Source: Thiotrichaceae bacterium
Lineage (GTDB): Bacteria; Pseudomonadota; Gammaproteobacteria; Eutrophobiales; Eutrophobiaceae
Direction: 5' to 3'
Assembly (NCBI GenBank): GCA_012960105.1
Contig: DUBV01000015.1
Coordinates: forward strand, 1 to 37,449
Length of the DNA stretch: 37,449 bases
Shown: in pieces, positions 4,820-37,449 of the stretch
How positions within the stretch are numbered: the first letter of the stretch is position 1
Layout of the letters: each line of letters starts with the position of its first letter
Program-made: the position numbers and the translations under genes
The notes under the pieces: generated by a model
The model's database searches: none
What the model was told of the DNA's origin: nothing
The model's input: the letters and a program-made list of their open reading frames with translations, nothing else

Positions 4820-4835
4820 TATTGCTAAATAGCCT

Positions 4836-5468: not shown

Positions 5469-5553
5469 TTCTCTTTTCTCTCCCGAAGGTGCATTTAAAA
5501 ATGCGCCTTACTCATTTTAAATATGTGAAATTATTGTCCACAAAAGGGCGCAC

Positions 5554-5581
5554 ATTATAACGTGGGTTTTACGTTTGTTTA
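5554..5581 (-). promoter_or_regulatory. putative sigma-70 promoter for yfgM-bamB-der
   Basis: On the minus strand a perfect TATAAT (5554-5559) sits 16 bp downstream of TAAACA (5576-5581, 4 of 6 matches to TTGACA), in the 126-bp gap between hisS and yfgM. A small hairpin (GGCGCATT with AATGCACC) follows in the presumed leader, then a purine-rich ribosome binding site. Confidence 0.5.
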
Positions 5582-5594
5582 GCCTTATAACACG

Positions 5595-6881: not shown

Positions 6882-6910
6882 CTACAAGTCCTCTAAATTA
6901 TGGAAAATTT

Positions 6911-7846: not shown

Positions 7847-7849
7847 TAT

Positions 7850-8632
7850 CTAGTTGTTTGACTCCAGTAATATCGCTGTTTCATTCGAATCAGGAAAGGT
7901 ATTTTTTAATAATAATGCATAACTCGAAACAGTATCTTTATCACCGAGCTCGCGTTCAATCTGTATACCTAACCACAGACTACGCGCTGTATGACGCGAC
8001 ACTTGTTGATAGCGTTGTATATAAGCTCTGGCAGAAAGGTAATTAAAATCATCCAGTGTTAACTCACACATTTTTATTAGCGCTTGTGGTACTTGGGGAT
8101 TGATATTCAATGCCTGTTGAAAATATTCTTTTGCTTCTTCTTTTTGCTTATTGCTATAAAGACATAAGCCTATATTGGTAATTGCAATTTCAGGTGTTCG
8201 ATAGAGTGGGTTATTCGCGGCTTTTAAGAAAGTCTTTTTGGCTTCTTTTAGACGATCTTGCTGGCATAGAAAACTACCATAATTATTCAGGCTTGATGAA
8301 TCATTGCTGTCTAGACTCAAAGCTCGCTTAAAACTTTTTTCAGCCTTTTTGGTATCGCCGATACGTTGATAGAGCAGACCAAATACATTATATGTTGCTG
8401 GATGCTCTGGGTCAGCTTCACGCGCTTTTTCCAGCTTATTTAAAGCATCGTTGTAATCACCTCGCTTTAAATAGGCGATGGCTAGATTAAGGTTTGCAGA
8501 AGCGACTTCATTGGTTACGTGAGTTGGGCGAATATTTCCGTTTGATGATGATCGAGTCTGAGCCGGATTACAGGCAGTAAGCATCATGGCTGTGATTAGC
8601 AGTAGAAAAATATGTAGATTATATTTTTTCAT
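7850..8632 (-). CDS. pilW: type IV pilus biogenesis lipoprotein PilW/PilF
   Basis: PilW (PilF in Pseudomonas) is an outer-membrane lipoprotein needed for multimerisation of the PilQ secretin of type IV pili. The 260 residues begin with a lipoprotein signal peptide whose lipobox is LTAC (cysteine at about residue 21). About six TPR repeats follow, for example NLAIAYLKRGDYNDALNKLE and TYNVFGLLYQRIGDTKKAE. The ATG overlaps the end of rlmN at a single base (8632), indicating translational coupling. Position between rlmN and rodZ matches other gammaproteobacteria. It implies that pilus genes exist elsewhere in this genome. Confidence 0.92.
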   Translation of the reverse strand: MKKYNLHIFLLLITAMMLTACNPAQTRSSSNGNIRPTHVTNEVASANLNLAIAYLKRGDYNDALNKLEKAREADPEHPATYNVFGLLYQRIGDTKKAEKSFKRALSLDSNDSSSLNNYGSFLCQQDRLKEAKKTFLKAANNPLYRTPEIAITNIGLCLYSNKQKEEAKEYFQQALNINPQVPQALIKMCELTLDDFNYLSARAYIQRYQQVSRHTARSLWLGIQIERELGDKDTVSSYALLLKNTFPDSNETAILLESNN

Positions 8633-9720
8633 TAATTTAGTTCAGTCAGAATTTTTTGATGTCTTGCTGCTTTGGCAGTAACTTTACCTACAAGTTGGCC
8701 ACATGCCGCATCAATATCATCACCACGAGTTTTACGGGTGATAGTAATGATTTTCGATTTTACTAAAACATCTCTGAATGAATTTATAGTTTTTATTTCT
8801 GAGCAATTGTAACTTGTTCCGGGAAAAGTGTTAAACGGAATCAAGTTTACTTTCGCCGGAATGCCTCGTAGGCACCCAACCAAATCATGCGCATCTTGCA
8901 AACTATCATTAACGTCTTTTAGCATGACATACTCAATAGTAATCGGTTCGTCATCTCTTGCCACAGTAAAGCGTTTACATGCTGCGAGCAAATCGCTTAT
9001 AGGATAAGAACGGTTAATTGGTACAATATCGTTGCGCAACTCATCATTACTTGCATGTAATGAGATGGCAAGACTGACATTAGTATCATCTTTCAACCGA
9101 TCTATTTCAGGAATAATCCCTGAAGTGCTGACGGTGACGCGTCGACGTGCCAGACCAAAACCTAAGTCGTCTGTAAGCAAGTTTATTGCCTTGAGGACAT
9201 TGTCGTAATTGAGCAAGGGTTCACCCATGCCCATGAAGACAATATTGGTGATGATGCGTTTATCGTTTTCAAAATAGCCGAGCGCCTTGTTAGCCGCCCA
9301 GACTTGCCCAATGATTTCACTGGTCGAAAGATTACGATTAAAACCTTGTTGACCAGTTGAGCAGAACTTACATTCTAGCGGGCAGCCAACCTGAGATGAG
9401 ATACAAAGTGTGCCTCTATCTTTTTCGGGAATAAAGACCGTTTCAACGGAACCGCCGCCTTTTACTTGAATTAGCCACTTACGCGTACCATCTTCTGATT
9501 TTTGTTCAGAGGTAATTTCCGGTAATTTTATACAAGCATTCTGTTCGAGATTTGCGCGTAAGTTCTTGCTGAGGTTGGTCATAGCTTCGAAATCAATAGC
9601 GCCTTGATGGTATATCCATTTGAGGACTTGTTGCGCACGAAATGATTTATCTCCAATCTCTATGAAGTAGGACCCCAGAGACTTCCGATCATAATCAAGT
9701 AAGTTCGCTTTATTGGTCAT
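8632..9720 (-). CDS. rlmN: dual-specificity RNA methyltransferase RlmN
   Basis: RlmN is a radical-SAM enzyme that makes 2-methyladenosine at A2503 of 23S rRNA and at A37 of certain tRNAs. The 362-residue protein has the CxxxCxxC cluster motif (Cys113, Cys117, Cys120 in VGCPLECKFC). Cys106 lies in LCISSQVGC, and a C-terminal cysteine in DDIDAACGQL corresponds to the methyl-carrying or thiyl cysteine of the E. coli enzyme. The conserved VFMGMGEPLLNYDNV segment is present. It follows ndk by 5 bp and runs directly into pilW, so it is almost certainly co-transcribed with both. Confidence 0.97.
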   Translation of the reverse strand: MTNKANLLDYDRKSLGSYFIEIGDKSFRAQQVLKWIYHQGAIDFEAMTNLSKNLRANLEQNACIKLPEITSEQKSEDGTRKWLIQVKGGGSVETVFIPEKDRGTLCISSQVGCPLECKFCSTGQQGFNRNLSTSEIIGQVWAANKALGYFENDKRIITNIVFMGMGEPLLNYDNVLKAINLLTDDLGFGLARRRVTVSTSGIIPEIDRLKDDTNVSLAISLHASNDELRNDIVPINRSYPISDLLAACKRFTVARDDEPITIEYVMLKDVNDSLQDAHDLVGCLRGIPAKVNLIPFNTFPGTSYNCSEIKTINSFRDVLVKSKIITITRKTRGDDIDAACGQLVGKVTAKAARHQKILTELN

Positions 9721-9725
9721 CGTTT

Positions 9726-10172
9726 TTATCGTGTTCTAGGACAAATTTCACTTTCATTAAAGAAAAAATCAATTTCCCTTTGGGCACTTTCAAGACTATC
9801 TGAGCCGTGTATCGCATTCTCATGTACTTCGCCATTAAAGTCGTGGTTAGCATAGAGATTACGAATTGTCCCAACTTCGGCTTCTTTCGGTATTGTGGCA
9901 CCCATCAAATCTCGTAGGATCTTAATGGCATTTTCACCTTCCAAAACCTGAACCATAACAGGGCCTGAAGTCATAAAATTCAATAATGGATTATAAAAAG
10001 GTCTTCCCTGATGTTCGGCATAAAGCTCTTCAGCCTTGCCGACGGATAAATGTAACATTTTTGCCGCAATAATGTTTAAACCGCTTTTTTCTATTAGCGC
10101 TAATATATTGCCAGTGAAATCGCTGGCTACCGCATCGGGTTTGATTATTGCGAGAGTTCTTTCCAGTGCCAT
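9726..10172 (-). CDS. ndk: nucleoside-diphosphate kinase
   Basis: Ndk transfers the terminal phosphate of ATP to other nucleoside diphosphates through a phosphohistidine. The 148 residues contain the active-site motif NAIHGSDS with His122, the substrate loop [15 protein letters not shown], and the start [15 protein letters not shown]. An AGGAG ribosome binding site sits about 10 bp before the ATG. It is the first gene of the ndk-rlmN-pilW-rodZ-hisS run. In Pseudomonas-type genomes ndk directly follows the ISC operon, and here it follows the SUF operon. Confidence 0.97.
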
Positions 10173-10216
10173 GTAAAACAGTCTCCTGAGACAGGTCTAT
10201 AAATAAGTATGGCGAG

Positions 10217-10245
10217 ATTATACGTGCTCATACCGCCGAATTAAA
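10217..10245 (-). promoter_or_regulatory. putative sigma-70 promoter for ndk operon
   Basis: A perfect minus-strand TATAAT (10217-10222) lies 17 bp downstream of TTTAAT (10240-10245), a weak -35. The site is about 45 bp before the ndk start codon, in a 180-bp gap that otherwise holds only AT-rich sequence. Confidence 0.5.
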
Positions 10246-10352
10246 TTATCTAAATGACGTGTTTGTAAGAAAAGCAGTAATTTAGGCCATTTTTTTAACT
10301 AAAAGTGAGAAATATCGCAAATTTATGTAAACGTGCTTTTTTTATAATGCTA

Positions 10353-10691
10353 TCAGTCGAAGCGATCATCGGTGACTTGCACCATGCCATTTTCAACTCT
10401 GACAGGAAAAGTGGGTGCTGGCTTATAGGCAGGAGCACTTAGGGCGCTACCTGTTTTGACACAAAAACGTGCACCATGACGCGGACATATTATTTCCGTG
10501 CCATCAATTATCTTTTCTGGCTCCAGACCACAACCAAGCATCGGGGCGCCATCATGCGTACAAACATCTTCAATTGCATAGTATTCACCGTCCAGATTAA
10601 AGACCGCGACCATGACGTTATCAATATCAACTAACTTTGCTTGCCCAGATGATAATTCTTCTTCTGGTGCAACATTAAACCAACCTGCCAC
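10353..10691 (-). CDS. Rieske-type [2Fe-2S] ferredoxin
   Basis: This small soluble Rieske ferredoxin has 112 residues and no signal or membrane segment. The cluster ligands are Cys44-Thr-His46 and Cys69-Pro-Arg-His72. It starts at a GTG and resembles the ferredoxin subunits of dioxygenase and nitrite-reductase systems. Here no oxygenase is nearby. It lies after sufT and before ndk, where the ISC operon of related bacteria ends with the ferredoxin gene fdx. I infer that it may supply electrons for iron-sulfur cluster assembly, but the family also includes other electron carriers. Confidence 0.85.
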   Translation of the reverse strand: MAGWFNVAPEEELSSGQAKLVDIDNVMVAVFNLDGEYYAIEDVCTHDGAPMLGCGLEPEKIIDGTEIICPRHGARFCVKTGSALSAPAYKPAPTFPVRVENGMVQVTDDRFD

Positions 10692-10764
10692 AAAATTTCT
10701 CCAAATAAATTATTAAATATTTAAAGAGCTTTGCATGACGTTATGAGCGAAGGCTAATCAAGGC

Positions 10765-10882
10765 AAATGTAGTCGAAAAAGCAGAATGTACACGTTAGTA
10801 CATGAGCATTTTGAGACTACATTTACCAACAGTAGGCGCTTTAGGCGACGCAGAGTAGCCGAGCACAATAGTCGTGCAGAGT
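10765..10882. repeat. intergenic palindromic repeat, copy 1
   Basis: AAATGTAGTC (10765-10774) is the exact complement of GACTACATTT (10815-10824). The 60-base hairpin continues inward in register with four A-T pairs and then a six-pair stem (ATGTAC/GTACAT) closed by ACGTTA. The right-hand part, from ATGAGCATT to the TCGTGC...GAGTTCT end and including GGCGCTTTAGGCGACG, recurs at 17194-17283. It fills the gap between sufT and the ferredoxin gene. Confidence 0.75.
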
Positions 10883-10887
10883 TCTTT

Positions 10888-11445
10888 TTAATACATACCT
10901 GTTTCTAAGCGAGCCGCCTCTGACATCATCTCCTGATTCCACGGAGGTTCAAATGTCAGTTCGACATTTACTCTATTAATATTAGGTAATGTTAATATTT
11001 TAGTGCGAACATCATCGGCAAGAAACTCACCCATACCACAACCTGCTGCAGTTAAAGTCATGACGATATCGACTTGGTTACCATCAGCACCCAAAGGCGT
11101 AATGTTACAGCCATAGATAAGGCCAAGCTCAACAATGTTGATTGGGATTTCCGGATCATAACAAGTGCGTAATTGATCCCAGACCTGATCTTCATCTACG
11201 CTACCGTCACCAGTGGCTTCTTTCTCTATAGTCGAATCGGGCTTGTCTTCAACTTCATAACCCAGTGCATCCGCATTTTTTGCATCAATGCGAGCGAGAT
11301 TGCCATTTACATTAACGGTATAACTACCGCCCAAAGCTTGCGTCACTAAAACAACAGTGCCTTCAGGCAAATTGATCGGTGTACCTACTGGTATTAAAAC
11401 TGCATCGCAGTCGCGTTCGAGTGTTATGGGTTTATTTTCTTGCAT
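10888..11445 (-). CDS. sufT: SufT-type iron-sulfur assembly protein (MIP18/DUF59)
   Basis: SufT proteins help mature iron-sulfur proteins in bacteria that use SUF. The 185 residues comprise an N-terminal SufT-specific portion of about 70 residues (CDAVLIPVGTPINLPEGT), a short acidic linker, and a MIP18/DUF59 domain (about 87-180) with DPEIPINIVELGLIYG, the cysteine motif TLTAAGCGMGEFL, and the C-terminal VELTFEPPW. It is the eighth gene of the iscR-suf cluster, 18 bp after sufU. Its partners are presumably SufU and SufBCD. Confidence 0.9.
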   Translation of the reverse strand: MQENKPITLERDCDAVLIPVGTPINLPEGTVVLVTQALGGSYTVNVNGNLARIDAKNADALGYEVEDKPDSTIEKEATGDGSVDEDQVWDQLRTCYDPEIPINIVELGLIYGCNITPLGADGNQVDIVMTLTAAGCGMGEFLADDVRTKILTLPNINRVNVELTFEPPWNQEMMSEAARLETGMY

Positions 11446-11923: not shown

Positions 11924-13180
11924 TTAGCCAAAGACCTTTTGGCATTTATCGATTGCTAGAATTAAAGCATCGACTTCTGCGAGGGTGTTATAAAAAGCAA
12001 ATGAAGCTCTGGCGGTAGCAGGAATACCAAAGCGTTCCATTACCGGCATAGCACAATGATGTCCTGCACGAACAGCGACACCTTCGCCATCGAGTATGGT
12101 GCCAATATCATGCGGGTGGATTCTTCCGAGTGTGAATGAAAGAATACTGGTCTTGTCTTTCGCTGTGCCGACAAATTTTAAATCGGATATTTGCGATGCT
12201 TGTTCATTAGCATAATCAAGTAATTCGTTTTCATATTGTGCTGTTACTGTAAGATCGAGTTCGTTTACATAATCAATGGCAGCACCCAAACCAATAACAC
12301 CGGCAATGTGTGGTGTGCCGGCTTCAAATTTATAAGGCAGGCTATTATAAGTTGATTTTATCATCGACACAGTCTGGATCATGTCGCCACCACTCTGGTA
12401 TGGTGGCATAGCATCTAACAAAGCTTCTTTGCCATACAGCACGCCAATACCGGTAGGGCCAAATAATTTATGTCCTGAGAAGACATAAAAATCACAACCC
12501 AGTTCTTTGACATTAACTTTTGTATGAGGAACAGCCTGAGCACCATCGACTAATATTTTTGCGCCAACGGCATGCGCCATATCAATAATTTTTTTAATTG
12601 GGTTAATCGTACCGAGTGCATTAGAAATATGACCGATGGCAACGATGCGTGTGTTTTTATTTAGAAGTTTTTCATACTCTTCGAGTATTAACTCACCAGC
12701 ATCATTAATCGGGATGTAGTTAAGTTTTGCACCAGTCTGTTCGCAGAGTATTTGCCATGGCACGATATTCGAATGATGTTCGAGTTCAGTAATAATGATT
12801 TCATCACCGGCACTGATCGTGTTTCTACCAAAGCTTTGTGCAACCAGATTGATAGCCTCAGTTGCACCGCGAACAAAAATAATTTCTTTTGTTGATTCGG
12901 CATTAAGAAAGGTTTTTACTTTTTCACGGGCTGCTTCATACACAGCTGTTCCTTTTTCGCTAAGGGTATGTACACCGCGGTGAATATTTGCATTATATTC
13001 CTGGTAATACGTATCAAGCGTTTCAATCACCTGCCTGGGCTTTTGCGACGTAGCGGCATTATCCAAATAGACTAATGGCTTACCATTGACCTGTTGTTGC
13101 AAGATCGGAAAATCGGCGCGTATTTTTTCAATATCAAATGTTGATGTGTCTGTGTTCATTGCGGTGTTTTGTTTATTCAT
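11924..13180 (-). CDS. sufS: cysteine desulfurase SufS
   Basis: SufS is a PLP-dependent group II cysteine desulfurase that takes sulfur from cysteine, leaving alanine, for cluster assembly. The PLP lysine is in FSGHKLFGPTG and the persulfide cysteine is in RAGHHCAMPVM, the short-loop group II arrangement. ELEHHSNIVPW is also typical. I chose the ATG at 13180 (418 residues), which overlaps the sufD stop by 8 bp. A GTG at 13192 and an ATG at 13159 are alternatives. It overlaps sufD upstream, indicating coupled translation. Confidence 0.94.
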   Translation of the reverse strand: MNKQNTAMNTDTSTFDIEKIRADFPILQQQVNGKPLVYLDNAATSQKPRQVIETLDTYYQEYNANIHRGVHTLSEKGTAVYEAAREKVKTFLNAESTKEIIFVRGATEAINLVAQSFGRNTISAGDEIIITELEHHSNIVPWQILCEQTGAKLNYIPINDAGELILEEYEKLLNKNTRIVAIGHISNALGTINPIKKIIDMAHAVGAKILVDGAQAVPHTKVNVKELGCDFYVFSGHKLFGPTGIGVLYGKEALLDAMPPYQSGGDMIQTVSMIKSTYNSLPYKFEAGTPHIAGVIGLGAAIDYVNELDLTVTAQYENELLDYANEQASQISDLKFVGTAKDKTSILSFTLGRIHPHDIGTILDGEGVAVRAGHHCAMPVMERFGIPATARASFAFYNTLAEVDALILAIDKCQKVFG

Positions 13181-14516
13181 TAGTAAATTCACGAATTAAT
13201 TCAGCGTCAGGTAACTGACCAATAATTAAATGTTCCAATCGATTTTTTATTGGAACAAGGCTAATGTCACTTATGATCTCGTTAACAAAGGCATAAGTTA
13301 GAAGGCTACGTGCGGTATCTTCATCGATGGCGCGTGAGCGTAGATAGAACAACATGTTTTTATCAAGCTGGCCGACGGTTGCACCATGGCTACATTTAAC
13401 ATCATCGGCATAGATTTCGAGTTCAGGTTTGGTATCGATTTCGGCATCGTCCGATAACAATAGATTCGCGTTGTTTTGATGTGCTTCAATTTTTTGTGCT
13501 TGTGGATGCACAACAACCTTGCCATTAAATACACCGCGACTTTTTCCATTTAAAACGCCACGATAATTTTCTGTGCTATGCGTGTTAGGTTTTAAGTGAT
13601 CGACACGAGTATGGTTATCAACGTGTTGTTTACCATCGGTCATATATAAACCATTCAGGACGATGCTTGCGCCTTCGGCAGCAAGTTGACCGTATATATC
13701 ATTTCGAACCAGAGAACCACCTAGCGAGATTGAATGTGATTTAAACAGACTATCTTTGCCCTGCGTCACATTCAAATTGCCAATATGGTAAGCATTCACA
13801 CTTTCTTGCTGAATTTTATAATGCTTGAGTATGGATGCAGTTGATAAGGAAACTTCCGTTACCACATTGGTAAAATAATTAGCATCATCAAGGCCAATAT
13901 AGTTTTCAATCAAAGTTGCTTCAGCATGCTCGCCCATGATGACTAAGTTTCTTGGATGTGTTGCTAAAGGCTGAGCATTATCTTTTGACAGATATAGAAT
14001 GTTTATTGGTTTATCAACAACGGTATTCTTCGGTACATTGATGTAGGTGCCATGTTGAATAAAAGCCGTGTTTAACGCCGTAAATGGGCTGACATTATTA
14101 TCGGCGTATTGTGATAAATGTTTTTCTAATAAATCTTTATCTTTAGCCAAAGCATCTGCCATGTTTTCAATGACGATGTTTTCAGTCAAGCCATCAAGGC
14201 GAGAATGTTCTTTAGAATAGACGCCGTTAATGAAAACCAGTTCGTAGCAATCAATATCTTGAAAACGAATCGCATCAATCTCTTCAGTCGTGATTGATGT
14301 TGTTGTGCTTACGTTAGAAAACGATTGTTTGGCAATAGGACGTACATCGGTATATTTCCAGTTTTCAAGACGTGAACTTGGGAAGCCCGTTTCTATAAAT
14401 AATTTCAATGCCGACTGACGTTGTTCAGAAAACCAGTCTCTTTCGACCGTCTCCTGAAATTGATCAAACTCAGCTAAATAATGTTGTGCATTGTTGTTCA
14501 TGTTTTCTTGGCTCAT
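13173..14516 (-). CDS. sufD: FeS assembly protein SufD
   Basis: SufD partners SufB and SufC in the SufBC2D scaffold where clusters are built. The 447 residues show the N-terminal helical region with [13 protein letters not shown], then a long beta-helix core of the SufB/SufD family with the C-terminal [15 protein letters not shown] and [14 protein letters not shown] motifs. Cys and His in that region match the SufB-SufD interface where cluster assembly takes place. Its ATG overlaps the sufC stop (ATGA, 14513-14516). Confidence 0.95.
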
Positions 14517-15280
14517 GCAGCTTCGTTCTCGCCCTTGTCGTCTTTAACAATCCAGTCGTAACCTTTTTCTTCGAGTTCTAATGCAAGCTCCGGCCCACCG
14601 GATTTAATAATTTTGCCGCCACTTAATACGTGTACATAATCAGGCTTAATATAATCAAGTAAACGTTGGTAATGAGTGACTAGAATAATTGAGCGTTCTT
14701 CATTGCGTAAACTATTAACGCCTTCAGATACAATTTTTAATGCGTCGATATCTAAACCGGAATCTGTTTCATCAAGTATGGCAAGTTTGGGTTCAAGCAC
14801 AGCCATCTGGAAAATTTCATTACGCTTCTTTTCGCCACCGGAAAAATCTTCGTTAACAGAACGACTCAATAGGTCGTCTTTCATTTTAACCAGTTTCATT
14901 TTATCTTTAATCAACGCTAAAAATTCAACCGCATCGAGTTCCTGTTCACCACGATTTTTGCGTATTGCGTTAACTGCCGCTTTTAATAAATAAACATTAT
15001 TAACACCAGGAATTTCTACCGGGTATTGAAAAGCGAGAAAGATACCCGCCCATGCACGTTCTTCAGGAGCAAGTTCAAGTAAGTCTTTGCCTTCATATTC
15101 AACGCTGCCTTGTGTAACTTCATAACCGTCTCTGCCAGCAAGCACATTTGCCAATGTACTTTTGCCAGAACCGTTAGGTCCCATAATGGCATGTACTTCG
15201 CCCGCTTTAATACTCAGATTTAAACCTTTGAGTATTTCTTTGTCGCCAATCTTTGTGTGTAAATTTTGTATTTCTAACAT
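14513..15280 (-). CDS. sufC: FeS assembly ATPase SufC
   Basis: SufC is an ABC-type ATPase that is soluble and drives conformational change in SufBCD. The 255 residues contain Walker A (GPNGSGKST, about 34-42), the Q-loop ([12 protein letters not shown]), the SufC-specific signature [11 protein letters not shown], Walker B ([12 protein letters not shown]) and the switch histidine in VTHYQRLL. It follows sufB with a 20-bp gap and overlaps sufD by 4 bp. Confidence 0.97.
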
Positions 15281-15300
15281 TATGCGTTCCTGTAAAATAT

Positions 15301-16749
15301 TTAACCCACTGCGCCCTCGAGCGTGATGCCTAATAATTTTTGTGCTTCAACGGCAAATTCCATCGGTAATTCTTTAAAGACTTCTTTGCAAAAGCCATTA
15401 ACGATCATGTTCACAGCATCTTCTTCTTTAATGCCGCGCTGTTTACAATAGAACAATTGGTCTTCACCAATTTTTGATGTCGTAGCTTCATGTTCAACGG
15501 TTGCGGTTGAGTTTTTCGCTTCTATATAAGGGAAGGTATGTGCGCCGCATTGATCGCCCATCAATAAAGAATCGCATTGCGTGTAGTTTCTGGCGTTATC
15601 AGCACTCTTGCTAATTTTTACCAATCCTCGATACGTCTGCTGCGCATGTCTTGCTGAAATACCTTTTGAAATAATTGTGCTGCGAGTGTTCTTGCCTATA
15701 TGAATCATCTTAGTGCCAGTATCGGCTTGTTGATAATTGTTGGTGACAGCAACAGAATAAAACTCACCAACCGAGTTATCACCTTTTAAAATACAACTTG
15801 GATATTTCCAGGTGATAGCCGATCCGGTTTCAACCTGTGTCCATGAGACTTTAGAATTATCACCACGGCAATCTGCGCGTTTGGTGACGAAGTTATAAAT
15901 ACCGCCGACACCATTCTCATCACCGGGATACCAGTTCTGAACAGTGGAATATTTTATTTCAGCATCTTTTAATACGATCAATTCAACCACTGCTGCATGT
16001 AATTGATTTTCATCACGCATCGGTGCAGTGCAGCCTTCCAAATAACTCACGTGGCTGTCTTCATCTGCAATAATTAATGTGCGTTCAAATTGACCCGTGT
16101 TCGATGCATTGATTCGAAAGTAAGTTGATAATTCCATCGGGCAACGTACGCCTTTAGGAATATAAACAAACGAACCATCGGTAAACACAGCGGAATTTAA
16201 TGCTGAGAAAAAATTATCTGCGGCAGGGACAACTGAACCCAAATATTTTTTTACTAATTCAGGATATTCTTTGACAGCTTCAGAAAACGAACAGAAAATA
16301 ACACCGGCATCAGCAAGCTTACCTTTAAATGTAGTTGCAACAGACACGCTATCGAATACCGCATCAACGGCAACGCCGGCTAAAAATTTTTGTTCTTGTA
16401 AAGGGATACCTAATTTTTCATAGGTTTCTAATAATTTTGGATCAACCTCATCCAAACTTTTTGGCCCATCGTCTTTAGATTTCGGTGCGGAATAATAAGA
16501 GATCGCCTGATAATCAATATGTTCTATATCTAGATGTGCCCAGGTAGGATCTTCCATTTTTAACCATTGACGGTAGGCTTTTAAACGCCATTCGAGTAAC
16601 CATTCAGGTTCATCTTTCTTTTTGGAAATAAAGGCAATGGTGTCTTCATTAAGACCTGGCGCAACCGTATCGGACTCGATGTCGGTGACAAAGCCGTGTT
16701 CATAGTCTTTGTTAACCAGGTCTTCCATGTTTTCGCTATTAGTAGACAT
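15301..16749 (-). CDS. sufB: FeS assembly protein SufB
   Basis: SufB is the main scaffold subunit of SufBC2D. The 482-residue protein has the family start with [20 protein letters not shown], the [31 protein letters not shown] core, the conserved cysteine in [20 protein letters not shown], and the C-terminal [19 protein letters not shown]. No intein interrupts it. It is separated from the A-type carrier gene by only 2 bp, so both are translated from the iscR-led message. Confidence 0.97.
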
Positions 16750-17284: not shown

Positions 17285-17749
17285 TTAGTGTTTTTGTTTG
17301 TTTAGCTGCATCATAATGACATCTTGTCGTTCAGATACTTGTTGTACATTGCTGCGTTGAACTAACTCACCCAGAGTCATGCTATTTAAAAAATCAGATA
17401 TATGACGGTTCAATTCCATCCAGAGGTCGTGCGTTAAACAACGTGCATTATCCTGACAATTTTGTTTGCCACCACAACGGGTAATATCAATAGGCTCGTC
17501 TACGGAATAGATAATCTTGGCGATAGTGATTTCGTCAGCACTTTGCGCTAAACGATAACCGCCGCCAGGACCGCGTGCGCTTTCAATTAATTCATGGCGT
17601 CTTAATTTGCCAAATAACTGTTCTAGATAAGTCAGAGAAATGTCCTGACGCTGAGAAATATCCGCCAGACTCACCGGCCCCTCACTGTCATGCAGCGCTA
17701 AATCCATTAATGCAGTTACCGCATATCGGCCTTTAGTTGTCATTTTCAT
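17285..17749 (-). CDS. iscR: Fe-S cluster-sensing Rrf2 regulator IscR
   Basis: IscR is a [2Fe-2S] transcription factor of the Rrf2 family that represses its own operon when clusters are plentiful. The 154 residues start MKMTTKGRYAVTALMDLALH. A winged helix-turn-helix follows (SLADISQRQDISLTYLEQLF). The cluster ligands Cys92, Cys98, Cys104 and His107 have spacing identical to E. coli IscR. Two IscR-type boxes lie 46-96 bp upstream of its start. It heads the SUF genes, which argues that it controls all of them. Confidence 0.95.
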   Translation of the reverse strand: MKMTTKGRYAVTALMDLALHDSEGPVSLADISQRQDISLTYLEQLFGKLRRHELIESARGPGGGYRLAQSADEITIAKIIYSVDEPIDITRCGGKQNCQDNARCLTHDLWMELNRHISDFLNSMTLGELVQRSNVQQVSERQDVIMMQLNKQKH

Positions 17750-31211: not shown

Positions 31212-31298
31212 TAATCTTTTTTATTTAGTTTGTAACATTAGTGCCTAAGTTATATTCAACGTAAACATTTTTTCTCCGCGGATCTATATTTGCGAATT

Positions 31299-31342
31299 TG
31301 GCGCTCCCTAGGGGACTCGAACCCCTGTTTCCGCCGTGAGAG
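31299..31342 (-). tRNA. 3' fragment of tRNA-Glu(CUC), attachment-site core
   Basis: Read on the minus strand, this 44-bp piece gives the 3' half of a tRNA. It holds an anticodon loop CTCTCAC (anticodon CTC), stem GGCGG, variable loop AAAC, T-arm AGGGG-TTCGAGT-CCCCT, acceptor strand AGGGAGC, discriminator G and CCA. It aligns with bacterial tRNA-Glu. The 5' half is absent: upstream bases do not pair with the GGCGG stem. Integrases of this type insert into tRNA 3' ends and leave such copies, so this is the left attachment site. The intact tRNA should lie at the far end, beyond the window. Confidence 0.85.
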
Positions 31343-31348
31343 AATGGT

Positions 31349-31472
31349 AAAGTGGACATTCGTGGACTTCCATAAACATTAAAAACCCTTTAGAATTGCG
31401 GTTATCGTCCACTTTTGTCTTTTGGAGTCCATGGAGATATACCCCCATAATTTACCTAAAAGTTACCTAAAA
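31349..31472. repeat. candidate integrase arm sites
   Basis: Between the tRNA core and int are an inverted repeat, AAAGTGGAC (31349-31357) with GTCCACTTT (31407-31415), and a direct repeat TTACCTAAAA at 31452-31461 and 31463-31472. The direct copies are 11 bp apart, about one helical turn. Short repeats like these flank attachment cores of tyrosine integrases and bind the integrase arm domain or Xis. Stretch 31212-31510 has no gene. Confidence 0.45.
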
Positions 31473-31510
31473 AATATTCTTGGGTATCTCATAGCGTCTG
31501 TAAGGTCATT

Positions 31511-32773
31511 ATGGCACGTCTAGCACAAGACTCGAAGTTACTAACAAGAGAGGCAAGAAGTAAGCTGAAACCTTCTCACGAGCCGTATTGGAAGGTAATA
31601 GAGCCGGGCTTTCATCTTGGTTATAGAAAGGGAAAGCAAGGTAAGGCGGGAACATGGATCGCACGATATTCTCTTGAAGGTAAATATAAGAAAAAGAGTT
31701 TAGGTAATGCGGATGACTATCGTGATGATAATGGTGTTGATGTTTTAAAATTTGGTACGGCTCAGATTAAAGCTAGAGAGTGGGCAACATCATTAATTAA
31801 AAAATCGAAAGGGATTCATGAAGGCCCGTTTAAAGTTAAGGATGCGATTAAGGAATACATGGACTGGTTCGAAGTTCATCGTAAATCAGTTAACAATACG
31901 CAGAGTGTTTTTGATTTCCATATCATTCCAAAATTTGGCGACATTGAAGTTTCTGAGATAACGACACGTCAAATCAGAAAGTGGCATGAGTCACTGGCTA
32001 AGCAACCAGCAAAAATAAGAACTGGGAAAACAAGTGAAAAGACAAACTACAAAAAGGTCAATGATGATCGTTCAAGGAAGGCAACTGCTAACCGTGTGTT
32101 GACCGTTTTCAAAGCGGCATTGAATCATGCTTGGCGTGAAGGGTTCGTAGAGTCCGATAACGCATGGCGGCGAGTAAGGCCATTTCGAAATGTTGATCAG
32201 GCTAAGATTCAATATTTAACTGAGAAAGAATGTAAGCGATTGATAAACGTTTGCCCCGCTGATTTCCGATCATTAGTACAAGGTGCGCTCTATACTGGTT
32301 GCAGATACGGTGAATTGATTAATATGAAGTGTGAAGACTTCAACACAAGGGCAAGAGTTATTTCTATCCCTGATTCAAAAAGTGGCAAGACGAGACATGT
32401 CCCTGTGACTGATCAAGGGAAGGAGTTCTTTAAGCGTCAGAAGGCCGGTCGAAAAGGAAGTGAACTGATGTTTCGAAAGAAAAATGGTGAGCAGTGGGGC
32501 AAGTCTCACCAAATCAGACTGATTAAAAATGCAAGTAAGACAGCTAAGATCGATCCTCCCGCAACATTTCATATCTTGAGACATACATACGGATCTGGTT
32601 TGGCAATGAATGCCGTACCACTGCAAGTAATAGCTGAGGCATTGGGTCATGCTGATACACGGATCACCAATAAACATTACGCACATCTGATGCCTTCTTA
32701 TGTGGCTGATACTATCCGAGCGAACCTTCCAGACTTTGGGAAGTTTGAGAAGGATAATGTGAGGGAAATATAA
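31511..32773 (+). CDS. int: tyrosine-type site-specific integrase
   Basis: The 420 residues hold an N-terminal arm-binding domain, a SAM-like core-binding domain (about 105-215) and a C-terminal catalytic domain. The catalytic residues are Arg265 (TGCRYGE), Lys290, His354 and Arg357 (HILRHTYG), His380 (LGHAD) and the nucleophile Tyr390 (HYAHL), so the enzyme looks complete. It should integrate and excise the island at the tRNA-Glu attachment site about 170 bp upstream. The following gene starts 2 bp after its stop. Confidence 0.95.
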   Translation: MARLAQDSKLLTREARSKLKPSHEPYWKVIEPGFHLGYRKGKQGKAGTWIARYSLEGKYKKKSLGNADDYRDDNGVDVLKFGTAQIKAREWATSLIKKSKGIHEGPFKVKDAIKEYMDWFEVHRKSVNNTQSVFDFHIIPKFGDIEVSEITTRQIRKWHESLAKQPAKIRTGKTSEKTNYKKVNDDRSRKATANRVLTVFKAALNHAWREGFVESDNAWRRVRPFRNVDQAKIQYLTEKECKRLINVCPADFRSLVQGALYTGCRYGELINMKCEDFNTRARVISIPDSKSGKTRHVPVTDQGKEFFKRQKAGRKGSELMFRKKNGEQWGKSHQIRLIKNASKTAKIDPPATFHILRHTYGSGLAMNAVPLQVIAEALGHADTRITNKHYAHLMPSYVADTIRANLPDFGKFEKDNVREI

Positions 32774-32775
32774 GG

Positions 32776-33393
32776 ATGACAAAGAAAAAGAAAGATATCA
32801 GGGACAATGTCATTAGTGGATGGTTGGATAAGTCGATTCCAGAAGATAAAATAATAATTTCGTTTGAAGGTTACTTTAAAGAAGACGACACGAATAGAAT
32901 CATTGAACAGATAAAATACATAATTGGTTACTATCGTTCATTGGTCGAGTTAAAAGAAAATAAAGAAACAGTGGGCGAGGAGATTAAACGGATTGATAAG
33001 ATAAACGAACAGATAGACGAATTAGATAAACAATTACAATATTATCCTATTAATGCAAATCTAACCTTAGATTACAAATCTTTTAAAGGCGGAGGTGATT
33101 GGTCAAAATTAATTAAATCTACAAGAAATTCATTGAATAGAATACGAAGATATGGAATTTTTGCGCAACGTAAATTAAATGAAATTCCACTAAAGACAAA
33201 ACCGAATAAGTATCCTAGAGATAGACTCATTTTTTCGTTGTCGGGAATATTTGATGATTATTATGCTTACAAAAAAGTGGGGAATCTTATAAATTCAAGA
33301 AACGATTTCATTAAAGAAATTCTAGAAATATTGGAGATTGATTGCCCTGACCACATCAATAAGATTATCCAGAAATATCCCCCCTCAGAGTAG
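32776..33393 (+). CDS. uncharacterised island protein
   Basis: I do not recognise this 205-residue protein. It is rich in Lys, Glu, Ile and Asn, with a long central helical region (about 70-100, EIKRIDKINEQIDELDKQLQ) that could form a coiled coil. There is no signal peptide, membrane helix or cysteine motif. Its ATG is 2 bp after int, with AAGG before it, so it is translated with int. A gene between int and alpA is a common cargo position in satellites, where defence or interference genes are often found, but the sequence does not show such a role. Confidence 0.7.
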   Translation: MTKKKKDIRDNVISGWLDKSIPEDKIIISFEGYFKEDDTNRIIEQIKYIIGYYRSLVELKENKETVGEEIKRIDKINEQIDELDKQLQYYPINANLTLDYKSFKGGGDWSKLIKSTRNSLNRIRRYGIFAQRKLNEIPLKTKPNKYPRDRLIFSLSGIFDDYYAYKKVGNLINSRNDFIKEILEILEIDCPDHINKIIQKYPPSE

Positions 33394-33497
33394 GGACTGA
33401 ATTTTCCAGACCCATATTTATATTGTGATTTAATTCCCCAATCGACATTAGTCATTCCCAGTAAGTTTGGATAACCATTGATGAGTTGGAGGAATTT

Positions 33498-33731
33498 ATG
33501 AAAATGAAATCTATACTAAATAATTCTGATATGCAGATCTATAGTGTTGCGTCGTTTTGCAAAGCACATGGTATCTGTAGAGGGCATTTCTATAATCTTT
33601 TATCGGAAGGGCTCGCTCCAAAAATAATCAAATTAGGAAGAAGAACGTTGATCTCGTGTGAGGCCGCAGCAGAGTGGCGTAAACAAATGGAACAACGAAG
33701 CGAGCAAAGCATAAAGGGTACGCAGAAATGA
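33498..33731 (+). CDS. alpA: AlpA-like DNA-binding regulator / excisionase
   Basis: This 77-residue protein has a helix-turn-helix (about 13-60: YSVASFCKAHGICRGHFYNLLSEGLAPKIIKLG, shown here only as its outline SVASFCKAHG to GLAPKIIKLG). A winged portion RRTLIS and the helix CEAAAEWRKQM follow. AlpA proteins are small regulators that in P4-like and PICI elements activate int or excision. I chose the ATG at 33498 over an upstream TTG because GGAGG at 33488-33492 is placed to serve it. Its stop overlaps the next start (ATGA). About 100 bp upstream hold the presumed promoter. Confidence 0.8.
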   Translation: MKMKSILNNSDMQIYSVASFCKAHGICRGHFYNLLSEGLAPKIIKLGRRTLISCEAAAEWRKQMEQRSEQSIKGTQK

Positions 33732-33898
33732 AGCCGGAAATAATACCCGCCGCCCTGGGCAAAGGGAAAGCGTGCTTGTCAAGACTTAGCGATAATAAGC
33801 ACAACAAACAATTCAATATCAGCAAGGACATAAAGCAGTACAGACTTTTACCGACTGAAATGAATAAAGCGGTAAAGATTTTAGAGGTATCCGCATGA
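33728..33898 (+). CDS. small hypothetical island protein (56 aa)
   Basis: A 56-codon frame from ATG at 33728 overlaps the stops and starts of both neighbours by 4 bp (ATGA at 33728-33731 and at 33895-33898). That tight packing is the main evidence that it is real. The peptide starts MKPEIIPAALGKGKACLSRL and is basic, with one cysteine and no clear motif. It lies in the replication operon. I do not recognise it. Confidence 0.55.
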   Translation: MKPEIIPAALGKGKACLSRLSDNKHNKQFNISKDIKQYRLLPTEMNKAVKILEVSA

Positions 33899-34299
33899 GT
33901 CAGTATTTAAATGAAATTGAAGACGATATATCAAAACAATTTAAAAGGGCTATGTTTGAATCTGGTATTGATACAGATGAAATTCCTATCGCAGATGGAC
34001 AGCTCCATCGGATCAAGATCGATGGTGTCAAGAATGGGAAAACGAGTGGCGGGTATGTCTTATTCGGTGATGGTAATCCGGCTGGATGTTTTTGGTCATT
34101 TAAACTGGGGATAAATGAAACATGGACTTTAAAATATATAAAAGAATTATCCCCGCAAGAACGTACAGAGTTTACCAAGCGAATGGACAAGGCAAAAAAG
34201 GAGAGAGATAAAGCACAAGCAATCGTGCACAAAGAAGCTAGAGTTGAAGCTGAACGTATTTGGAGTAATGACTATTACACCGACATAAGGCTGCCATAA
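33895..34299 (+). CDS. primase-associated N-terminal-like protein
   Basis: This 134-residue protein has the segment DGQLHRIKIDGVKNGKTSGG followed by GYVLFGDGNPAGCFWSFKLG. The pattern is familiar from the N-terminal region of phage and plasmid primase-helicases of the TOPRIM group. A charged helix (about 92-124) ends it. No TOPRIM or catalytic aspartates are visible, so it is probably a DNA-binding or regulatory piece of a split primase. It overlaps the 56-codon gene and is 4 bp from the CHC2 gene. The name rests on pattern memory. Confidence 0.65.
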   Translation: MSQYLNEIEDDISKQFKRAMFESGIDTDEIPIADGQLHRIKIDGVKNGKTSGGYVLFGDGNPAGCFWSFKLGINETWTLKYIKELSPQERTEFTKRMDKAKKERDKAQAIVHKEARVEAERIWSNDYYTDIRLP

Positions 34300-34303
34300 A
34301 TTG

Positions 34304-34699
34304 ATGATTGCCGATAAATTAATTCATGTCCTTAATGGTGTGCGGGAAACAGGCGAAGGCAGATGGTTGGCTTGTTGCCCAGCGCACGATGACAGATCTC
34401 CCTCGCTTTCAATGCGTGAAATAGATGATCGATTATTGATACATTGCTTCGCTGGGTGCGACGTTAACGAAGTAGTCAATGCAGTTGGTCTTGAATTATC
34501 CGACCTCTTTCCTGAGAAGAGAACAACCAAATATAACAAGTCACAACGATTATATTTTAAGGCTGATGATGTTTTAGAGGCTCTTCAAGATGAAATCACA
34601 ATGTTACAAAAAATCGCGGCAAGAATGAATATCTCAGAATTTGATGAAAGACTCGCACTGGCTAGTCAGCGTTTTCAATCAGCAAGGGATCTAATATGA
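34304..34699 (+). CDS. stand-alone CHC2 zinc-finger (primase-type) protein
   Basis: The 131 residues start MIADKLIHVLNGVRETGEGR and hold a CHC2-type zinc finger. Cys25-Pro-Ala-His28 is followed by DDRSPSLSM and then Cys48-Phe-Ala-Gly-Cys52, matching primase zinc-binding domains that read template DNA. The remaining half is helical. It has no TOPRIM catalytic domain. The ATG at 34304 is preferred over a TTG at 34301. It overlaps the DUF3631 gene by 4 bp. I infer that it works with that ATPase in replication initiation. Confidence 0.82.
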   Translation: MIADKLIHVLNGVRETGEGRWLACCPAHDDRSPSLSMREIDDRLLIHCFAGCDVNEVVNAVGLELSDLFPEKRTTKYNKSQRLYFKADDVLEALQDEITMLQKIAARMNISEFDERLALASQRFQSARDLI

Positions 34700-36267
34700 A
34701 TGCTGAAAATGGGCGAGCTATTTTGGATAATAATACTGTCAATGAGCCTATTGAAGGGAATGATGTCACAACTGTTTCTTCTAATGTCTCTAATATATTT
34801 GAAAGTCTTGCATTATTATCATTTGTTGAATATGACCAGAGAAGAAAGAGTGAAGCAAAAGCATTAGGTATTAGGGTCGGCACACTCGACAGGGAAGTGG
34901 AACTAGCCAGAAAGGTTGTCAATGAACAGGATTCAACAAATTCTCTTTTCTCTGTTACGGAACCTTGGCCTGATAGGGTAGATGGCAATCACCTACTGTT
35001 AGAACTCCAAAGTGTATTCAAACAATATTCAATCATCCCAGATGGTGCTGAAATAGCCTTACCCTTATGGGTACTTGGCACGTATGTTTTCGATATATTT
35101 CGTATTTATCCTATGTTGGGATTGGTATCACCTGAAAAACGATGCGGAAAAAGCACTGTGATGACTATACTCAAGGCGATAAGTCAACGGTCGATTCTTG
35201 CATCAAATATTAGTCGTGCTGCGGTATACCGTGTGATTGAAGCATGGAGACCTACATTACTCATTGATGAGGCTGATACCTTTCTTAAAGGCAATGATGA
35301 ACTTAGGGGAATCATTAATTCAGGACATACTAAAGATGCTGCGTTCGTAATACGAACCGAAGGGGATAATCACGAACCCAAGAAATTTTCTACATGGGCA
35401 CCAAAGGCTATTGCGATGATTGGCGATATGCCTGATACCAATCGTGATAGGTCAATTGTCTTGACAATGCGTCGGCGCAAACCAGGTGAACGAATTAATA
35501 AAATTGCCTTGGGTTTTGGAGAAAATTGCGAATCGTTGAGGCAAAAATGTCTACGGTGGGCAATGGATAATCAGTTAAACCTAGGCAATGCTTGTACTGT
35601 GGTGCCAGATATTGGTAATGATCGGGCTAGTGACAATTGGACATCTCTACTCACCATAGCCGAAGTAATCGGGGGGGACTGGATGAAGGAAGCCATAAAA
35701 GCAATGAAGATTTTATCTGAGTATGATGAGGGAGATAATATCGGGCCAATGCTACTCAATGACATAAAGACGATATTTGAAGATAAGAATGTCGAGCAAA
35801 TATTTTCAGAAGATTTGGTAAAGACGCTGATAGAGTTGGAAGAAAGACCTTGGGGTGAATGGAGTAAAGGTAAACCGATTTCGACAAATAAACTTTCAAG
35901 ATTATTAAAGCCATACAAGATACGAACTCAGACAATCAGATTCAATTTAGAAACAAAGAAAGGGTATAAATTAAAGTCATTTGATGATGTTTTTTCCCGA
36001 TATCTTTCTACAGAACCTCAAAATATAGAACATTCAAACGTCACACCGTCACAAGTCAATTGTGAAGCAGGTATTAAAGACAATCAAAACGACACACCAA
36101 ACGAAAATGTGACGGATCATAACGACACATATCACAATGATGTGACGGATGAAAATATGTTAAGACCCAATAATGGTAAGGATTGTGACGGTGTGACTGA
36201 TGAAAACACCACTTCAGGGACGTGTGAAAAGAATATTTCTAAACCAGACAGAAGAGTGGAAATATGA
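34696..36267 (+). CDS. DUF3631 replication ATPase
   Basis: This 523-residue protein has a P-loop ATPase core of the DUF3631 type. Walker A-like PEKRCGKST spans about 146-154 and Walker B TLLIDEAD about 187-194. Conserved WAPKAIAMIGDMPDT and DRSIVLTMRRR follow, the latter with likely arginine-finger residues. DUF3631 proteins occur in phage, plasmid and island replication modules, often joined to CHC2 or TOPRIM domains. About 80 C-terminal residues are low complexity, rich in Asn, Asp, Thr and Val, with repeated VTDEN-like units. The DNA there holds the repeats listed at 36038-36199. It overlaps both neighbours by 4 bp. Confidence 0.85.
   Translation: MNAENGRAILDNNTVNEPIEGNDVTTVSSNVSNIFESLALLSFVEYDQRRKSEAKALGIRVGTLDREVELARKVVNEQDSTNSLFSVTEPWPDRVDGNHLLLELQSVFKQYSIIPDGAEIALPLWVLGTYVFDIFRIYPMLGLVSPEKRCGKSTVMTILKAISQRSILASNISRAAVYRVIEAWRPTLLIDEADTFLKGNDELRGIINSGHTKDAAFVIRTEGDNHEPKKFSTWAPKAIAMIGDMPDTNRDRSIVLTMRRRKPGERINKIALGFGENCESLRQKCLRWAMDNQLNLGNACTVVPDIGNDRASDNWTSLLTIAEVIGGDWMKEAIKAMKILSEYDEGDNIGPMLLNDIKTIFEDKNVEQIFSEDLVKTLIELEERPWGEWSKGKPISTNKLSRLLKPYKIRTQTIRFNLETKKGYKLKSFDDVFSRYLSTEPQNIEHSNVTPSQVNCEAGIKDNQNDTPNENVTDHNDTYHNDVTDENMLRPNNGKDCDGVTDENTTSGTCEKNISKPDRRVEI
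36038..36199. repeat. six 8-bp iteron-like repeats, candidate replication origin
   Basis: The unit is TGTGACGG. Reverse-strand copies abut at 36038-36045 (TGTGACGT read on the minus strand) and 36046-36053. Forward copies stand at 36108-36115, 36141-36148, and as an abutting pair at 36184-36191 and 36192-36199 (TGTGACTG). So two head-to-tail pairs face each other across two single copies. All lie in the 3' end of the DUF3631 gene, where they encode its VT-rich tail. Confidence 0.5.
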
Positions 36268-36590
36268 ATACTGCTTCTGACATATTGGCCTATACCTCTC
36301 AGTACCAAATTCGTTTGGCTGTAGAAAATGGAAATCTGATCATGGAAGCCCCAGAAAATATCCTGACAGATGAATTTGTAACAACTGCAAAGCAACATAA
36401 AGCTGAATTGCTTGAAGTACTTACTAAACCTGATCGGTGGGATCCAGAGTTAGCAGCAGTAGGATATCAATGGTGTCTTGACTGCAGATATTTAAATGAG
36501 GTTTGTATTCATCCTGATAATCCATTTCGTCAGCAGTGCCCACAAGCACCCAGAAAATGTCAGTGGTATGAGACAGGAGAGAAATTGTAA
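36264..36590 (+). CDS. TubC-N-like / cysteine-rich island protein
   Basis: This 108-residue protein has two parts. Residues about 4-53 (LRLAV-type strand, ENGNLIMEAPENILTDEF, then KQHKAELLEVL) resemble the TubC N-terminal docking domain found in many phage and island proteins. Residues 70-100 hold five cysteines (71, 74, 81, 92, 99) that could bind zinc. It overlaps the DUF3631 gene by 4 bp and is the last gene before the non-coding region upstream of terS. Its function is unknown; a role in protein contacts within the replication module is inference. Confidence 0.7.
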   Translation: MNTASDILAYTSQYQIRLAVENGNLIMEAPENILTDEFVTTAKQHKAELLEVLTKPDRWDPELAAVGYQWCLDCRYLNEVCIHPDNPFRQQCPQAPRKCQWYETGEKL

Positions 36591-36620
36591 ATATAAATTG
36601 AGTTTAAGATTTAATAAAGA

Positions 36621-36720
36621 ATAGGGGTACGGGGGCGGTTTTATTTCTACAGTCTGAACAGTGCCTAACGTGGCCCCATCCTTTGCACGTTTTTCCGCGT
36701 TATTTTCATTTGGGGAGCAA
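36621..36720 (+). other. candidate cos/packaging region
   Basis: The 178-bp gap before terS carries GGGGTACGGGGGCGGTTTTA (36624-36643), then TTCTACAG, GTGGCCCC and a GCACGTTTTTCCGCG stretch. A G-rich block next to TCTACAG directly upstream of a P27-type small terminase is an arrangement I recall from HK97-like cos phages. No cleavage site can be fixed by eye. Confidence 0.35.
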
Positions 36721-36768
36721 TATATTGATCAATAACTTACAACCTAATATCAGAAAGAGGGTTAGATA

Positions 36769-37215
36769 ATGGGACGAAAAGCAAAACCGACGAAATTGAA
36801 ATTGCTTCAAGGCAATCCAGGTAAACGTCCGATCAACGAGTCGGAACCAAACGCTAATCCTGCCAGTGTTAGATCTCCGACGTGGTTATCCGATGGTGCG
36901 CGCAAGTGTTGGGATATGAACGCAGCGACCATGATCGGAGCGGGTGTATTGACAAAACTCGATGCCGATATGTTTTCGGCATATTGCGAGTCTTTTAGCC
37001 TTTGGCAACGCGCGCATGAACAACTCGAGGGTTCGTCCTTAATACATGAAAACGAATCAGGCTATAAACAACAAAATGGACTTATCGGAATTATTAATAA
37101 GTCGCAAGATCAACTCGTTAAACTTGCTAGAGAATTTGGTATGACGCCGAGCGCGAGAACGAACATTCGATTGACGGTCGAGAACGATGACAACGAATGG
37201 AATGATTTCGACTAA
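36769..37215 (+). CDS. terS: phage terminase small subunit, P27 family
   Basis: The small terminase recognises packaging DNA and recruits the large subunit. The 148 residues follow the P27 family pattern: MGRKAKPTKLKLLQGNPGKR at the start, then PxWLSDGARKCWD, the LDADMFSAYCESFSLWQRA helix, NGLIGIINKSQDQLVKLAREFGMTPSAR, and an acidic tail. GAGGG precedes the ATG. The codon use is visibly richer in G and C (for example CGCGCGCATG) than in the AT-rich genes just upstream, so the packaging module may have a separate origin. The large subunit is expected next but is not in the window. Confidence 0.88.
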   Translation: MGRKAKPTKLKLLQGNPGKRPINESEPNANPASVRSPTWLSDGARKCWDMNAATMIGAGVLTKLDADMFSAYCESFSLWQRAHEQLEGSSLIHENESGYKQQNGLIGIINKSQDQLVKLAREFGMTPSARTNIRLTVENDDNEWNDFD

Positions 37216-37248
37216 TAACCTATTAACTAGTTAAGGGGTATCACAATT

Positions 37249-37416
37249 ATGGAAAATATATTAGAAGATGAATATCGAGAAACGCTACAGGATCGCGATC
37301 AGTTTTTGGGGCTAGTAGAAACGGCTATTGAATATGTTAATGAGGAAGAAGAACCATGCGATAGTATGGAGTGTACCCCGTCAGCACCATGTGGACCAAT
37401 TAGCCTGATTGCCTAA
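37249..37416 (+). CDS. small acidic ORF after terS (55 aa)
   Basis: A 55-codon frame starts at ATG 37249, about 10 bp after AAGGGG (37233-37238). The peptide is strongly acidic (MENILEDEYRETLQDRDQF at the start), with three cysteines near the end (CDSMECTPSAPC). It lies 33 bp after terS in the same direction. I do not recognise it. The good ribosome binding site and position between packaging genes make it a fair candidate for a real gene. Confidence 0.5.
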   Translation: MENILEDEYRETLQDRDQFLGLVETAIEYVNEEEEPCDSMECTPSAPCGPISLIA

Positions 37417-37449
37417 GAGATAGTTTTAGTTCATCGTTAACCTGAGAGG

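Follow-up and report, generated by a model that had tools for sequence, protein, structure and literature searches.

A satellite-like island at a tRNA-Glu gene of a Thiotrichaceae bacterium, with its own terminase small subunit and a DUF3631 replication gene

What kind of element has settled at a tRNA-Glu(CTC) gene of a Thiotrichaceae bacterium, and by what vehicle might it travel? The stretch analysed here, called the window, is 37,449 nucleotides long and is the entire contig DUBV01000015.1 (C15) of assembly GCA_012960105.1; coordinates are window positions, and the numbers with C, G and L denote contigs, genomes and loci. Positions 31298 to 37371 are the left part of the island. We consider it rather probable that this is an integrated satellite resembling the phage-inducible chromosomal islands (PICIs), one that carries its own terminase small subunit (TerS), probably lacks virion genes, and is packaged by a helper phage. 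A satellite-like island is supported by a direct attachment repeat, arm-like motifs at both ends, a replication module with iteron-like repeats, a TerS gene, and a complete sister island in which the searches run found no virion genes.

The left boundary is a 45-bp core corresponding to the 3' end of tRNA-Glu(CTC) (31298 to 31342, reverse strand). It is identical to C6:1494-1538 in the same genome, and the genome holds only these two copies. ARAGORN calls an intact tRNA-Glu(CTC) on C6, where the core is part of it, and calls no tRNA in the window. Beyond the core, C6 continues into open reading frames (ORFs) that read by eye as pcnB, folK, a deoxynucleoside kinase, panB, panC and panD. Because the tRNA gene is intact and its neighbours are of host type, the part of C6 to the left of the core would be the right end of the island. 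A 20-bp motif (31452 to 31471, forward strand) begins 110 bp to the right of the left core, and an exact copy at C6:1431 begins 63 bp to the left of the right core. Scanning 14 loci found it in five: the window, C6, the sister island described below (at both ends, exactly), and two other sister sites. The motif is probably an arm-type site to which the integrase would bind, and its presence on both contigs ties C6 to the same integrase type as the window. Together with the restriction of the core to two places in the genome, this leads us to infer that C6 and C15 carry two ends of one island, of which at least 6.1 kb (window) plus 1.5 kb (C6) can be seen. The G+C content is 39.3% both inside and outside. 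Two ORFs at the right end on C6 had no match by Pfam, PADLOC or PHROG. Just inside that end, at L004 (G000:C6) 1273-1323, there is what reads as the 3' half of a tRNA-Gln gene; a counterpart in the L130 gap, about 100 bp from tRNA-Glu, is similarly placed. Over 51 bp the copies of this genome and G006 share 98% identity, which looks as though another tRNA piece had travelled with the element.

All island genes in the 6 kb seen run rightward according to the ORF list, as the first-pass annotation of this DNA had said, and the tRNA 3' fragment, integrase, replication module and P27-family TerS that it had named are borne out by profile matches and core identity at or near the places where it put them. 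The first gene encodes a tyrosine integrase of 420 amino acids (31511 to 32773, forward strand, as are all genes below; PF00589, E 6.6e-29). The replication module comprises a primase-related protein of 134 amino acids (33895 to 34299; phrog_35358, DNA primase, E 1.7e-8), a CHC2 zinc-finger primase fragment of 132 amino acids (34301 to 34699; PF01807, E 3e-5, with 24.2 bits where the cut-off is 24.9; phrog_6088, E 8e-15) and a P-loop ATPase of the DUF3631 family with 523 amino acids (34696 to 36267; PF12307, E 1.8e-37). The ATPase retains the conserved, Walker-like motifs PEKRCGKS and LIDE, and found no meaningful match among Protein Data Bank sequences. Its predicted model is of low confidence (pLDDT 62.7, pTM 0.44). 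The best fold match is staphylococcal PriRep1 (7pds; E 4.1e-4), which we take to be a pathogenicity-island replication protein, but at a TM-score of 0.26 and 11% identity; MCM, adeno-associated virus Rep40 and D5 helicases follow with E values above 0.001. The protein thus fits a probable replicative initiator-helicase, as far as such a model can indicate.

The last 300 nucleotides of the DUF3631 gene contain five copies, counting either strand, of the 7-mer CGTCACA/TGTGACG (36033 to 36206, unstranded), a count reached by 4 of 500 shuffles and in 2 of 366 other windows. When 11 DUF3631 gene ends were compared, this one included, the repeat count was reached in at most 5% of other windows for eight (the window, L012, L028, L030, L031, L033, L085 and, at 6/121, L027) and was commoner for three (L020, 12/53; L021, 9/33; L089, 15/130). 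L030 shares the 7-mer of the window, and the remaining gene ends have motifs of their own. The sister island carries three copies (60-100% alike) of a 30-nucleotide repeat at the 3' end of an initiator-like gene; its top 9-mer count is reached in 0/173 other windows and its top 7-mer count in 2/173. In PICIs, the origin is reported to lie immediately 3' of the replication gene (PMC6092414), and the window island has this PICI arrangement by sequence: primase and replication genes, then iteron-type repeats. We regard the repeats in the DUF3631 gene as a probable replication origin.

The gene that suggests transfer by phage is a P27-family TerS of 148 amino acids (36769 to 37215; Terminase_4, E 2.4e-20; phrog_83, E 6.7e-38). 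The G-rich gap that had been noticed before it is real: in the whole 37 kb, at least 10 G in 14 nucleotides occur at two places only, 36624 and 7565. This G-run, 145 nucleotides upstream of TerS, has 10 G in 14, a density that 29 of 4964 windows of this sequence attain, and a C-rich stretch follows 55 nucleotides on (36624 to 36678, forward strand). Proteobacterial phages with a P27 TerS have a run of at least 10 G in 14 nucleotides within roughly 230 nucleotides upstream of the gene in 13 of 14 cases; Vibrio Len is the exception, and in PotUPM1 the run that was counted lies far upstream, with another nearer. No G-run precedes TerS in Streptococcus Javan244 or in the viral locus L041, and one is present in the satellite-like L031. 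In the sister island, a similar run lies about 100 nucleotides upstream of the first small ORF. The HK97 and D3 records start 49 and 36 nucleotides before TerS, presumably at the cohesive-end site, cos. A profile built from the cos regions of 13 phages, with Vibrio Len left out for want of a G-run, matched L089 (E 2.3e-7; L071 covers the same place in the genome), between the DUF3631 and protease genes, and also L063 (E 0.0011); on L031 and L033 it stayed at chance level (E 8 or more). We call the site in the window cos-like rather than cos, a reading that rests on the G-run and its place.

P27 TerS is also a normal phage gene, matched by 460 phage records, and the contig ends directly after it, so we also have to weigh a prophage, ordinary or decayed, with late genes that the assembly lacks. 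In all 13 annotated phages of the comparison, the gene for the terminase large subunit (TerL) starts within 20 nucleotides of the end of TerS or overlaps it, the beginning of a TerS-TerL-portal-protease-capsid operon of the HK97 type. In the window, the next ORF begins 33 nucleotides after TerS and is not TerL-like by Pfam or PHROG, being a short piece cut by an insertion sequence (IS); neither that operon nor the TerS and TerL pair of capsid-forming PICIs (cfPICIs) appears in the part seen. No lysis or HNH gene was seen before TerS in the island, DUF3631 occurs in 1 of 50,697 phage records, and the sister island at the same site has no virion matches in the searches run. A prophage seems to us quite improbable on these grounds, and the preferred reading remains a satellite that depends on a helper for its particles.

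The end of the contig explains why the locus cannot be followed further. Its last 78 bp (37372 to 37449, forward strand), outside the island proper, belong to an IS3-family element: they form its left end and match C52:7984 at 97.4% identity over 78 bp. A two-ORF copy occupies C52:7984-9484, and further copies exist in the genome. The contig stops at 37449 because the assembly broke at this repeat, and the ORF at 37249-37416 is for the same reason a chimera, in which only the first 41 codons (37249 to 37371) belong to the interrupted gene. Exact copies of the last 28 bp stand at C4 and at two places in C52, and C16 has a copy with three mismatches. Right ends of the IS were found on C52, C58 and C107. 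Their flanks read as host DNA, including on C58 an IS1182-like transposase remnant, named by eye, that adjoins the IS; the middle of the island is consequently absent from the assembly. Matches on C21 and C86, at first guessed to be right ends, were rejected, as they look like left ends of related elements. No target-site duplication matching the window flank was seen by eye. Since the IS interrupts the gene after TerS, this copy of the island may be impaired. Solo left ends of the same element, 78-86 bp long and without transposase, also occur at L013 (G000:C52) 2874-2959, at the end of L015 and at L014 175-252, one of them lying, next to another integrase, with a tRNA-Arg 3' end on either side; they can be read as remnants resembling miniature inverted-repeat transposable elements or as one-ended products.

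The missing middle leaves room for the proposal of the first-pass annotation, a capsid-forming satellite at tRNA-Glu with head genes that would now lie beyond the IS insertion. HK97-type head operons typically have a P27 TerS and a cos-like G-run next to them, and there are DUF3631 relatives with capsid genes (L020, L031, L032, L033, L089 and, ambiguously, L028). However, TerL does not follow TerS, no HNH gene precedes it, and the complete sister island has no head gene in the searches run. PF03354 (TerL), PF05065 and PF25209 (capsids) have no match in this assembly, which is 98.5% complete, a weak indication given that the assembly lacks the island middle; in controls these families matched in 3, 4 and 2 of 14 genomes. 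We regard a capsid-forming element as unlikely. Of the earlier proposal, then, we retain the satellite-like island and not its capsid, and a satellite with TerS and probably no virion genes of its own remains the favoured reading.

The sister island offers the best available stand-in for a test for head genes. We sought pcnB in 12 genomes of the genus (some of which, such as G009, gave a weak and probably paralogous match only) and compared eight sister sites. tRNA-Glu was found at seven of them, and an integrase like that of the window at one, in G007, with 82% identity over 420 amino acids. G006 and G008 retain the arm motif beside the tRNA, probably as island remnants. The G007 island (L129) is complete, at the same tRNA-Glu: its core lies at 876 and its intact tRNA at 17644-17717, so that it spans about 16.8 kb within one contig of an assembly that is 80% complete, and its cores, read by eye, are identical over about 42 bp. 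Its DNA is 78.6% identical to the window island over the first 1.48 kb (attachment site and integrase), after which the similarity stops. Its genes are, in order, the integrase, a protein of 168 amino acids, an AlpA-like gene and a weakly supported replication-initiator-like gene (phrog_678, E 0.0022), followed by the repeats, the G-run, two small ORFs, a TIG protein of 661 amino acids and then mostly leftward cargo. Searches with phmmer of ORFs of at least 40 codons, using a reference set without lysis proteins, detected in L129 neither TerL nor a portal, protease, capsid, adaptor or tape-measure protein, and no virion or lysis family appeared among the 13 of its proteins searched with Pfam or PHROG (10 by each, some by both). 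Head genes were sought, and none turned up.

Two L129 genes were considered for TerS. That at 3883-4293 is unsupported (BLASTP; negative hidden Markov model scores; hhalign probability 0.7%; no phage match). That at 4301-4684 is a weak candidate (phmmer E 0.0028; BLASTP 3e-6 to the L031 TerS in a single comparison), with no match to the D3 TerS and none in the phage collection. Elsewhere in L129, a leftward gene pair at 7073-8171, encoding 155 and 233 amino acids and toxin-antitoxin-like by eye, and a hydrolase-like protein together with a 756-amino-acid protein without a family at 13161-16740, are candidate defence cargo; the sole PADLOC match in the cargo is a weak one, mad1 in the 233-amino-acid protein (E 0.0009).

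DUF3631 relatives were found in 2 of 17 candidate stretches in genome contigs, in 26 of 42 in viral contigs and in 14 of 369 genomes of the class, this one included; a plasmid collection contributed three records, all actinobacterial. Scanning viral contigs with the DUF3631 protein alone gave 0/2, and with the integrase nothing or weak matches. A synteny table of 37 loci showed matches to head or TerL references in 10 loci, several of which may be whole phages, and to P27 TerS references in three; some of the references came from five of the 37 loci themselves. Head genes stand beside an integrase and DUF3631 on small contigs or islands in L020 (a ClpP-capsid_4 fusion), in L031, L033 and L089 (S78 protease and capsid) and in L032 (a gp13-like capsid, a protein of 152 amino acids at the TerS position, and TerL). 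L033 (IMGVR_UViG_2630968629_000004, 1-10958) carries an integrase, an AlpA-like gene, a primase, DUF3631, an S78 protease and a capsid, and then a host PPK2 gene. It also has one ORF resembling lambda tail assembly by eye; 1 of 25 proteins tested matches phrog_32, and no TerL or portal was seen on the contig. In L028 the integrase separates genes for TerL, protease, capsid and portal from an AlpA-like gene and DUF3631. We do not count this locus as a proven satellite, as the contig may be circularly permuted or hold two neighbouring elements. By contrast with the capsid bearers, L082, L084 and L086 had no packaging match in the stretch read.

Because the packaging content of the relatives differs in this way, DUF3631 marks a replication module shared by islands of different packaging content. 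Islands without a packaging match, together with the plasmid records, also suit a different view, in which the element is not moved by phages at all and is a genomic island that captured TerS; a cos site that is unproven, having escaped the profile, would agree with this. Yet the G-run and an intact TerS occur together, downstream of replication genes, and neither relaxase nor conjugation genes are among the Pfam and PHROG family matches of the window part of the island. We hold a non-phage island to be improbable, and continue with the helper-dependent satellite. It is possible, and we put this forward tentatively, that these loci belong to a widespread satellite lineage in which a DUF3631 initiator-helicase has its iteron origin within its own gene; the integrase, AlpA-like and replication genes would be constant, and the packaging strategy would be swapped among a lone TerS (window), a protease with an HK97 capsid (L031, L033, L089), a ClpP-capsid fusion (L020), and a capsid with both terminases (L032). 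Two of the relatives deserve separate mention. L089 (G137:C142, 700-7650) is a DUF3631 island beside tRNA-Ser with a broken-looking integrase, an S78 protease, a capsid and no terminase, and is a candidate capsid-bearing satellite. L012 (PV029746.1, Pseudomonas phage Phipami28), the single DUF3631 match among phage records, also has ABC-transporter, dehydrogenase and Rhs-like genes; instead of a plain phage, the record may contain a piece of bacterial chromosome that includes an island.

Known satellites give the closest comparison. Gram-negative PICIs such as EcCICFT073 and PmCI172 are characterized by a left-end integrase, an AlpA-like regulator (alpA or merR in the group at large), a rightward primase/replication module, TerS in some, a specific attachment site and a size of about 15 kb (PMC6092414). 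The island shares the left-end integrase and direct attachment repeats (45 bp here, and also present in G007), a putative AlpA-like regulator, the rightward replication module, repeats right at the 3' end of the replication gene, and TerS; the sister island measures 16.8 kb against their 15. It differs in that the replication gene is DUF3631 (PF12307). Transcription in these PICIs is unidirectional and rightward, as in the 6 kb seen here, whereas the cargo half of the sister island runs mostly leftward. They lack structural and lytic genes except homologs for packaging or capsid morphogenesis, and the sister island has no virion match in the searches run. Further marks of the group are attachment sites that prophages never use, genes exclusive to PICIs, and induction, packaging and interference involving a helper phage. 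cfPICIs such as EcCIEDL933 have their own genes for capsid, portal, protease, connectors, HNH and both terminases (PMC11389934, PMC13230959). With these the island has in common an integrase, a putative regulator, replication genes, a P27-type TerS and a cos-like site, but it shows TerS alone, and no capsid, portal, protease or connector in the part seen. Phages of the HK97, D3 and SfV type likewise have the P27 TerS with its upstream G-run; unlike the part of the island seen, they continue with TerL and then portal, protease and capsid. By analogy, the way of life of the island is likely that of a PICI on present evidence, and we do not claim membership of that group.

A cycle of this kind can be sketched. 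The integrase would recombine the repeated tRNA-Glu core by way of the arm-like sites at both ends, and the AlpA-like protein, to judge from Gram-negative PICIs, may be the switch for excision or activation, with excision expected during the activity of a helper phage. Replication would then begin at the iteron-like repeats, with the primase pieces and the DUF3631 ATPase as its starting machinery. By recognising the cos-like site next to its gene, the P27 TerS would steer the TerL and heads of the helper onto island DNA.

Several points weigh against this interpretation. The island middle is unassembled, and virion genes, or a TerL gene away from TerS, could lie there. The AlpA-like gene of the first-pass annotation does exist as an ORF (33486 to 33731, TTG start, 81 amino acids) whose product is 56% identical over 61 amino acids to its sister-island counterpart, but the name is weak, since the HTH_17 match (E 0.0048) falls below the family cut-off. 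DUF3631, TerS and both primase-related proteins of the window were found by tblastn at 0/8 sister sites, so the sister island is a stand-in and not a copy, and a TerS of its own is not established by the comparisons above. The cos profile missed the site in the window, where its best match was 5.0 bits at 5953. The G-rich alignment of the two islands is unexceptional: 1 of 1000 shuffles reached it, but so did 15/869 and 14/890 other L129 windows on the two strands.

In the literature searched, we found no report linking DUF3631 with satellites, and the family by itself came up in a single paper. If our interpretation is correct, PICI-like satellites extend to a genus and a replication-gene family for which that literature gave no satellite report, and DUF3631 gains a likely role and a testable origin. 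The related small islands would then form a natural series for the study of how satellites move between helper particles, redirected packaging and heads of their own.

Three further genes lie in the left part. A protein of 205 amino acids (32776 to 33393) is of unassigned family, with weak matches only (FlxA, E 0.0042; phrog_13138, E 0.0048). A small ORF of 56 amino acids (33728 to 33898) has no Pfam or PHROG family, and a protein of 108 amino acids with a TubC_N domain (36264 to 36590; PF18563, E 1.3e-8) is encoded between the DUF3631 gene and the G-run. Repeated coiled-coil proteins with near-identical N-termini occur at several places in the genome, for example at L004 (G000:C6) 7301-8410 and L025 747-1562.

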